A stretch of 5,480 nucleotides of DNA from Chloroflexota bacterium (lineage in GTDB: Bacteria; Chloroflexota; Chloroflexia; QHBQ01; JADMIH01), in assembly GCA_015478675.1 (NCBI GenBank), contig JADMIH010000223.1, forward strand, positions 1 through 5,480, in the 5' to 3' direction. The notes below the pieces were generated by a model. That model worked only from the letters and a program-made list of their open reading frames with translations. It was not told where the DNA came from and ran no database searches. Position numbers and translations under genes: made by a program. This document shows positions 2,331 through 5,107 of the stretch, one piece after another; within the stretch, counting starts at the first letter, position 1, and every line of letters begins with the position of its first letter.

Positions 2331-2342
2331 CCCTGGCCAGGG
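2331..2342. repeat. Perfect 12-bp palindrome CCCTGGCCAGGG
   Basis: CCCTGGCCAGGG is an exact 12-base palindrome about 50 bases upstream of the RDD gene start. Its last two bases are the first two of the left target duplication of the adjacent mobile element. Its position suits an operator for the RDD gene, but a 12-base palindrome alone does not show that. It may also simply mark a preferred insertion site. Confidence 0.4.
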
Positions 2343-2348
2343 TTAATT

Positions 2349-2480
2349 GAGGCATGGGCATAATTCATTTTTCACGCGTAGAGGCGCGCCAAATAGACCG
2401 CCAAACTGCCCATATTGGCCCCAGTGGGCCAATGCTGTGAGCGTGAAATTCCGCCTGATTTTGAATTATGACCATGCCTC
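2349..2480. mobile_element. MITE-like element, 132 bp, with 19-bp TIRs and 8-bp target duplication
   Basis: The left end GAGGCATGGGCATAATTCA (2349-2367) is the reverse complement of the right end TGAATTATGACCATGCCTC (2462-2480) at 18 of 19 positions. Immediately outside each end is the same octamer GGTTAATT (2341-2348 and 2481-2488), as expected of a target-site duplication. Inside are a further subterminal inverted pair TTTCACGC/GCGTGAAA (2370-2377 and 2441-2448), a GGCGCGCC palindrome (2383-2390) and a central hairpin (2414-2433). There is no transposase reading frame, so it would need one supplied in trans. Several insertion-sequence families make 8-bp duplications, and I cannot assign this element to one from its ends. 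It lies in a divergent promoter region and could affect either gene. Confidence 0.8.
2414..2433. repeat. Central hairpin of the MITE-like element
   Basis: ATTGGCCC (2414-2421) and GGGCCAAT (2426-2433) pair perfectly over 8 bp around a CAGT loop. The hairpin's centre is about 9 bases from the centre of the element's terminal repeats, so the element is not one simple long palindrome. Such internal pairing is common in short non-autonomous elements. Confidence 0.6.
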
Positions 2481-2676
2481 GGTTAATTACTCCTGTGTAT
2501 ACTTCTACTCAAGAGTACTGGCATTGTAGCATAGGGCCTGAAGGGTAACAATGGCCTGGCAGGGGTATGTTAGAGGTATCTATATTTAGCCGGTGGTACT
2601 AATCACATGGCGCTGTGGAGCATAATCTGTACCTTTCGGCGCTCGCTAAGGTTGCGCACGACCCGCAGCAGGGGAT

Positions 2677-2874: not shown

Positions 2875-4605
2875 ATGCAGCGATTTACTTTTAGCGCTTC
2901 GCGGCGCAGCGCTTTGCTTTGTCTACTTATAACGACGCTAGTAGCCGCAGGGTGCGATCTTCTCCCCGGGCCCGATACGCCGCGCTCCCCCAGAACGCCT
3001 ACCGCTGTGCCACCTCCAACGGCTACTGTGCCGCCCGACAAGAGGGGAGGTACTCTGACCGTCAGCATGGCTGCCGACGTCACCTCGCTCAATCCGTGGC
3101 TCGCGGGTAATGACGAAGGCGCACAGAAGATTAGCCGTCTTATCTTCAACGGCCTGACGCGTCTCGATAACCGTCTGCAACCACAGCCTGATTTAGCCGA
3201 AAGCTGGGACGTATCTGCCGATGGCACCTCGCTCACATTCCACCTGCGCAAGGGCGTTTTGTGGCAGGATGGCAAGCCTTTTACCGCTCAGGATGTTGTC
3301 TGGTCATACAATGTGATGGCAGCCCTGCCGGTGGACCCTTCATCTCTACTTGGCGCTTCGCTCGTTCCCATTCAGCAGACCATCGAGAGCGTACAGGCGG
3401 TTGACCCTGTTAGCTATACTGTGCGCTTCAGCCTCAAGCGGCGCTATTCGCCTATTTTGGCCGACCTCGCACTGCCTATTCTCCCCAGTCATATTCTATC
3501 GGGCACTACAGCCGATAAGCTTTCTGCTTTGCCTTTCAACAGTAATCCTGTTGGCACGGGGCCTTACGCCTTCGACAAGAGGGTACCCGACCAGTCTGTG
3601 TTATTGAAATCGAACCCGCGCTACTTTGCGGGAGAGCCGCCCATAGGCAACATCAACTTCCTGGTGGCTCCGCCCAGTAACCTTGCGCTGGCCGAAGATG
3701 CTATCCGAAAGGGTCAATTGCTCCTCGCGCAACTGCCACCTGGTGATGCGGAGAAACTTGTAAAGGAGGGCAAGGGCATACGCGGTGGAGCTTACGATGA
3801 GCTTGGTTATGACTTCGTGGCCTTCAACTTGCGCCCGCCACGCCCTTTCAGCGACACGCGCTTGCGCCAGGCGTGGGCATTGGCCCTCGACAAGCCGGGG
3901 CTGACTTTCGCTGCGACCGCAGGGGAGGGCGATCCGGTCTGGAGCGACATCAATAAAGCATCGTGGGCCTACGATCCCAACGTTCCCAAGCCCGGTGGCA
4001 ACCCCGAAGCCGCGCGCAAGCTGCTGGCCGACGCTGGGTGGGTAGACAAGAATAATGATGGTATTCTGGAGAAAGCTGGTAAGCCGTTGCAGGTTTCTCT
4101 TTATGTGCGTTCGGACAACCCTGTGCGGCGCAAGGCAGCGCAGGCGATGGTTGAGCCGCTAAAGAGGGTGGGTATCGGTGTAAAGGTGCAACTCGCGGAT
4201 TTCGAGACCGCCTTGCTGGGGCGGCTTAGCCCGAATGCACAACCTCCCTTTGATTTTGATGTTGTGATGCTCGGCTACACGCGCACAGGTGTAGACCCCG
4301 ACGACTTTCTCCTATTTCATTCGAGCCAGATACCGACACAAGCGGCACCCGCAGGGCTGAACTTTACCGGCTTCAACGCTCCTGAGTACGATGATCTATC
4401 AGTGAAAGCTCGCAACAGCTACGATTTTGGGGAGCGCAAAGATATTTATGCTCGCATGCAGAGCATTATCGCCGACCAGATGCCCTACTATTATCTATGG
4501 TCGCAAAAGTTCGGTGTGGTGGCAGGCCCAAAGCTCAAAGGCGATATAGACTTTTCATCACCTTTATACATGTGGAACATTACTCAGTGGTACATTGAGA
4601 AGTAG
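2875..4605 (+). CDS. ABC transporter family 5 solute-binding lipoprotein (peptide/oligopeptide type)
   Basis: The 576-residue product belongs to the SBP_bac_5 (DppA/OppA-like) family, which captures peptides, nickel or sugars outside the membrane and passes them to an ABC permease. Residues 1-26 form a lipoprotein signal: R3, R10 and R11, a hydrophobic core at 13-25, then VAAGC with C27 as the lipid-modified residue. A Pro/Thr-rich tether follows (about 30-56), then GGTLTVSMAADVTSLNPW near 58-75. The family signature region is LAESWDVSADGTSLTFHLRK (107-126) with FTAQDVVWSYN (136-146). NPVGTGPY is at 224-231, and a DKNNDGILEK loop at 391-400, typical of the family, may bind calcium. The length is close to the family norm and the frame is intact. 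The substrate cannot be read from sequence. No permease or ATPase gene is adjacent and a terminator follows 58 bases after the stop, so it is probably expressed alone. Confidence 0.95.
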   Translation: MQRFTFSASRRSALLCLLITTLVAAGCDLLPGPDTPRSPRTPTAVPPPTATVPPDKRGGTLTVSMAADVTSLNPWLAGNDEGAQKISRLIFNGLTRLDNRLQPQPDLAESWDVSADGTSLTFHLRKGVLWQDGKPFTAQDVVWSYNVMAALPVDPSSLLGASLVPIQQTIESVQAVDPVSYTVRFSLKRRYSPILADLALPILPSHILSGTTADKLSALPFNSNPVGTGPYAFDKRVPDQSVLLKSNPRYFAGEPPIGNINFLVAPPSNLALAEDAIRKGQLLLAQLPPGDAEKLVKEGKGIRGGAYDELGYDFVAFNLRPPRPFSDTRLRQAWALALDKPGLTFAATAGEGDPVWSDINKASWAYDPNVPKPGGNPEAARKLLADAGWVDKNNDGILEKAGKPLQVSLYVRSDNPVRRKAAQAMVEPLKRVGIGVKVQLADFETALLGRLSPNAQPPFDFDVVMLGYTRTGVDPDDFLLFHSSQIPTQAAPAGLNFTGFNAPEYDDLSVKARNSYDFGERKDIYARMQSIIADQMPYYYLWSQKFGVVAGPKLKGDIDFSSPLYMWNITQWYIEK

Positions 4606-4663
4606 GGGCGCGGGAATGGTATGAGGGCGTGGCGTGGCGCAACCCTGAAGGTGAACAAGGCAG

Positions 4664-4711
4664 CAAAGAAGCCTTACCGGGGAGGAGGAGAACTCCGGTA
4701 AGGCTTCTTTG
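4664..4711. terminator. Bidirectional Rho-independent terminator
   Basis: CAAAGAAGCCTTACCGG (4664-4680) pairs perfectly over 17 bp with CCGGTAAGGCTTCTTTG (4695-4711) around a 14-base purine-rich loop. Because the arms end in AAAGAA and TTCTTT, either strand reads as a GC-rich stem followed by a short T-rich run. It lies between the ends of the plus-strand solute-binding gene (58 bases after its stop) and the minus-strand small gene (about 148 bases after its stop), as expected for a terminator shared by convergent genes. The T-run is short, so termination may be incomplete. No gene was seen in 4712-4858. Confidence 0.85.
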
Positions 4712-4858
4712 TTGGCGTTGCCGGGCATCAAGAGCTTTGCCGCAACAAAACGCCGGTTTGTGCCTGGTTTCCCTGGCTCTACTCAGTAACCGGGGGTGCT
4801 AGCTCACGGTGGCGTTGAAGCATTAGCTGCGTTCCGTCTGATCCTGCCTGCTTGCCCA

Positions 4859-5107
4859 CTACCGGCCCTGGGCCAGTTCCTTGCTCATGTTTTGCATATG
4901 CTCTTTGGCCGCGACGTCTACCTTCTCCTGAATGGAGCGGCCCACTTCCTGGTTGCTGAGGGTGCCCGCAAGGGCAGAGATTGCTCTCATCGTTGCCAGT
5001 TCGCCTAGTACTAGATCGGGCGCAGGGTCCCCTCCATGGATCAGCAACCAGAGTTTTATTATCCAGATGGGGTCTAGCGAATGTTCAAAGACAGTATGCT
5101 TATTCAC
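4859..5107 (-). CDS. Small protein of unknown function, 82 residues
   Basis: This is a complete frame starting with GTG (5107-5105), read as Met, and ending in TAG. The start is set by a good AGGAG six bases upstream, and the gene converges on the terminator at 4664-4711. I do not recognise the family. The N-terminal third has a hydrophobic, Trp-rich stretch LDPIWIIKLWLLIHGGDPAPD (11-31) that is too short and interrupted for a confident membrane helix. Residues 35-80 look helical and charged (ELATMRAISALAGTLSN, then RSIQEKVDVAAKEHMQNMSKEL). There is no cysteine and no signal peptide. The product is probably a small soluble or membrane-associated helical protein. Overlapping plus-strand frames lack a comparable ribosome-binding site. 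Confidence 0.7.
   Translation of the reverse strand: MNKHTVFEHSLDPIWIIKLWLLIHGGDPAPDLVLGELATMRAISALAGTLSNQEVGRSIQEKVDVAAKEHMQNMSKELAQGR

Follow-up and report, generated by a model that had tools for sequence, protein, structure and literature searches.

The question raised by this locus is whether a short palindromic stretch between two genes arrived there by transposition or belongs to the ancestral intergenic sequence. The DNA analysed (the window) is 5,480 nucleotides long and comes from a Chloroflexota bacterium (contig JADMIH010000223.1 of assembly GCA_015478675.1). Within it, a gene for an RDD family membrane protein (PF06271, E 5.2e-24) lies on the minus strand at 2–2281, with its start codon at 2281, and runs off the window. 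A gene for a solute-binding protein (SBP_bac_5, PF00496) occupies 2875–4605 on the plus strand, and the stretch in question is located in the 593-bp gap between the two.

The initial annotation described exact octamers flanking 19-bp inverted ends that match at 18 of 19 positions, with nothing in between, and this arrangement was borne out to the base across 2341–2488. The element itself covers 2349–2480 (132 bp, no strand assigned). Its left terminal inverted repeat (2349–2367, plus strand) and right terminal inverted repeat (2462–2480, minus strand) are of the type GAGGCATGGNCATAATTCA, and the end-to-end inverted match stops at position 20. Direct copies of the octamer GGTTAATT, taken as target-site duplications, occupy 2341–2348 on the left and 2481–2488 on the right, with 0 bases between duplication and inverted end on either side. 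These are the only 2 occurrences of the octamer in the window, where its reverse complement does not occur at all, and the match cannot be extended in either direction (G at 2340 against C at 2480; G at 2349 against A at 2489). The element was also said to be too short for a transposase, which is correct, as no ORF within its 132 bp could be one. At its left edge, positions 2331–2342 form a perfect 12-bp palindrome (CCCTGGCCAGGG), which shares 2 bases with the target duplication and is possibly part of the target site.

To set this arrangement against chance, the window was scanned for inverted ends matching at 16/19 or more positions, with an outer length of 42–599 bp and exact abutting 8-mers, and the same scan was applied to 60 first-order Markov simulations of the window. 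The window contained one such structure, the element at 2349–2480, and the 60 simulations contained none. The real sequence is richer in the component parts than its simulated counterparts, with 25 inverted registers of at least 16/19 (simulated mean 0.38, largest 7) and 74 eight-mer coincidences (simulated mean 52). The 25 registers correspond to three palindromes, one being the element and the other two having their centres near 2713 and 4687; neither of these two is flanked by a direct repeat of 5–12 bp. Calculated from the simulation means, about 7e-6 such combinations would be expected by chance, and counting all 25 real registers raises this figure to about 5e-4. The initial annotation had read the ends and duplications as the mark of transposition, and together they strongly support transposition of a short element lacking coding capacity.

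The element is predicted to fold strongly on both strands. With its duplications, the plus strand gave −65.1 kcal/mol (z −6.36) and the whole element on the minus strand gave −62.6 kcal/mol (z −6.74), with 0/200 shuffles as good in each case. The interior alone was moderately better than shuffles (z −2.38, 3/200 as good), and in these predictions the strength of the fold comes mostly from the terminal stem. Nested internal palindromes had been reported as well, and both are present in the sequence: the arms at 2370–2377 (plus strand) and 2441–2448 (minus strand) pair with each other, and the inner palindrome ATTGGCCC-4-GGGCCAAT at 2414–2433 consists of the inverted pair 2414–2421/2426–2433. 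However, the minimum-energy fold of the minus strand, which is the sense strand of the RDD gene, keeps the inner palindrome and omits the 2370–2377/2441–2448 stem. No Rfam family reached its gathering score in the window, and the intergenic region gave two matches below threshold (E 0.49, partly overlapping the element, and E 0.63, outside it), both to unlikely kinds of RNA; a known RNA family was rejected on this basis.

The element had further been placed about 68 bases from the RDD gene start, between two divergent promoters. The distance agrees (67 bases lie between the element and the start codon's first base); no divergent pair of promoters was found in 2200–2900. The only sigma-70-like match in 2200–2900 (1 found against a mean of 0.8 in shuffles, hence not above chance) is TTGTTA-17-TACAAT with a TG before the second hexamer, which lies beyond the element on the minus strand (2551–2523) and faces the RDD gene across it. 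Going by this one chance-level match, the element may sit in the 5' leader of the RDD gene. Supposing that this match is used and that transcription begins near 2516, the element would lengthen the leader by 140 nt, from 95 nt to 235 nt, and bring a strong hairpin into the transcript (predicted fold of the assumed leader plus 20 coding bases, −95.3 kcal/mol with the element and −30.6 kcal/mol without). Under this model, an effect of the element on RDD expression is possible. That the element was co-opted as a hairpin leader controlling the RDD gene, making it a regulatory MITE in a Correia-like position in Chloroflexota, we consider unlikely. An intrinsic terminator was also considered and rejected, as 0 were found in 2200–2900.

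Further copies and a parent insertion sequence (IS) were sought in several collections. BLASTN with 148 bases (the element and its duplications) gave no match at E 1 among 72,556 plasmid and 50,697 phage records. In viral contigs, no stretch matched either of two two-ended patterns or an interior pattern, and the exact end pattern matched once (L003), overlapping the start of a predicted ORF. For this match, no partner end was found within 12,359 bases at up to 3 mismatches, and it was taken as a probable chance match. The end sequence was present in 0/398 genomes from the phylum of a Neptuniibacter genome that carries a distant RDD relative (see below), a phylum taken as Pseudomonadota from the record name. 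The plasmid, phage, viral-contig and 398-genome sets, in which no second copy was found, all sample the host lineage poorly, as does the E. coli set used below, and the absence of copies in the collections searched weighs little. A protein set of some 5.8 billion entries does cover the host lineage, and would reveal only copies called as ORFs of similar length; when it was searched with one translated ORF from each strand of the element (2/6 frames), no candidate shared three words. A coding sequence was rejected for the element on the basis of these two of six frames. Target duplications of 8 bp are made by several IS families. No IS end sequence is known to fit the present one well, and no parent IS family is named from it. 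A literature search with its first eight bases gave no relevant title among those listed.

Other explanations than a MITE were weighed against these results. The stretch could be ancestral and serve the RDD gene as a structured leader RNA or as an operator, its inverted repeat being a functional stem and its octamers agreeing by chance. Such a leader or operator would account for the strong predicted fold, the internal palindromes and the position shortly upstream of the RDD start, and the promoter-like match would transcribe through the element. However, abutting 8-mers are expected to agree by chance at only about 1.8e-5 per register (derived from the simulations), the fold is mostly terminal stem with an interior much closer to shuffles, and Rfam yielded nothing beyond the sub-threshold matches described above. 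We consider a leader or operator of this kind highly improbable.

The two ends could also be what is left of a single IS copy that suffered an internal deletion, rather than of a MITE family that amplified. The interior is tied to no family and a second copy was not found in sets that sample the host lineage poorly, both of which are consistent with a lone remnant. Yet the interior has palindromes of its own, and the two of six frames searched produced no protein homologue. A deleted IS is, in our view, improbable too.

A MITE inserted by transposition is clearly the best explanation, and a very probable one. It is favoured because an exact 8-mer abuts 19-bp ends matching at 18/19 positions, an arrangement seen in 0/60 simulations, and because the element is too short for a transposase and the two frames searched lack a homologue. 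The whole-element folds on both strands (z −6.36 and −6.74) favour it as well, and the element agrees with the prokaryotic MITEs described in PMC10969869 in its size, the length of its ends, its position between genes and a transcript that forms a hairpin. Prokaryotic MITEs are short (typically <500 bp) and without a transposase, and this element has 132 bp; they have terminal inverted repeats, here 19 bp (18/19), and their younger copies have flanking target duplications, here an exact 8 bp abutting both ends. They are also intergenic and form a stable stem-loop in the transcript, as is predicted here. On the other side, prokaryotic MITEs are typically AT-rich, a typical and not a defining trait (PMC10969869), whereas the element shows no excess of A+T over its intergenic surroundings (GC 0.515 vs 0.517 there, and 0.561 for the whole window). 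MITEs are further expected in multiple copies per genome and alongside an autonomous IS with the same ends; counting against a MITE here, neither a second copy (in sets that sample the host lineage poorly) nor a parent IS or empty site was found. Judging from the intact 8-bp duplication and the 18/19 ends, a recent insertion is plausible. In such an insertion, the target duplication would have been made by gap repair, the element would have been mobilised in trans by the transposase of a parent IS, and it would presumably exist in multiple copies.

The element is probably a new MITE, ordinary in kind, of which one copy was seen. ERIC sequences of Enterobacteriaceae, about 127 bp long, are likewise intergenic and nearly the same size as the 132-bp element, but the 593-base intergenic region matched nothing at E 0.01 among 20,395 E. 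coli records. MITEAba12 of Acinetobacter has 111–114 bp and 16-bp inverted ends with one mismatch (19 bp with one mismatch here), and shares with the present element the presence of a target duplication and the absence of a transposase (PMC6382973). It differs in its 9-bp duplication (8 bp here), its end sequence, its 90 copies and its likely parent IS, ISAba12, as opposed to the one copy seen and no known parent here (PMC6382973). Correia elements of Neisseria, as described in PMC10969869, are short and palindromic, and can adjoin a promoter downstream and lie in a gene's transcript; they are reported there to be cleaved by RNase III and bound by IHF, and they are likened to the present element by form, not by sequence. 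The likeness is one of form, lying in size and anatomy for MITEAba12 and in position for Correia elements. Literature searches showed no title on MITEs in Chloroflexota among those listed, although the text of a paper may mention one. While a probable MITE is by itself an ordinary feature, the clean ends and target duplication of this one give a direct handle for finding its parent IS and further copies in a host genome.

Relatives of the flanking genes were also collected. The RDD protein search yielded 62 proteins, including the window's own, from 7,992 scored candidates. The nearest other protein among the 62 (P0002) is 87% identical, and the 6 proteins with an organism name are all from a Chloroflexota or Chloroflexia bacterium, which makes an uncultured Chloroflexota bacterium the probable host. 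An alignment built from 16 of these proteins, that of the window among them, matched 64 stretches of genome contigs, one of which encodes a relative, the Neptuniibacter RDD protein (26% identity over query residues 263–352); beyond this distant protein, no true relative was found in these contigs, and no relative in viral contigs. The Neptuniibacter genome has one RDD family match. Across this genome and 56 of its relatives, a sample that says nothing about Chloroflexota, the alignment had matches in 42/57, limited to the RDD domain and its immediate vicinity. For the solute-binding protein, 3,280 plasmid records matched, of which 3,279 lie under 60% identity and 1 lies at 60–80%; the ten matches listed are about 30% identical, and none of these is named as Chloroflexota.

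Three other features of the window were recorded. A minus-strand ORF of 82 aa with a GTG start lies at 4859–5107 and matched nothing in Pfam at E 0.001. The intergenic region that holds the element also has, at 2689–2738, a perfect 17-bp inverted repeat (GGTGCGCAGAGGACGCG/CGCGTCCTCTGCGCACC) whose arms enclose a loop of 16 nt, REP-like by impression, for which a flanking direct repeat of 5–12 bp was not found. Lastly, a 20-bp inverted repeat (95%) at 4661–4714, downstream of the solute-binding protein gene's stop at 4605, is possibly a transcription terminator.
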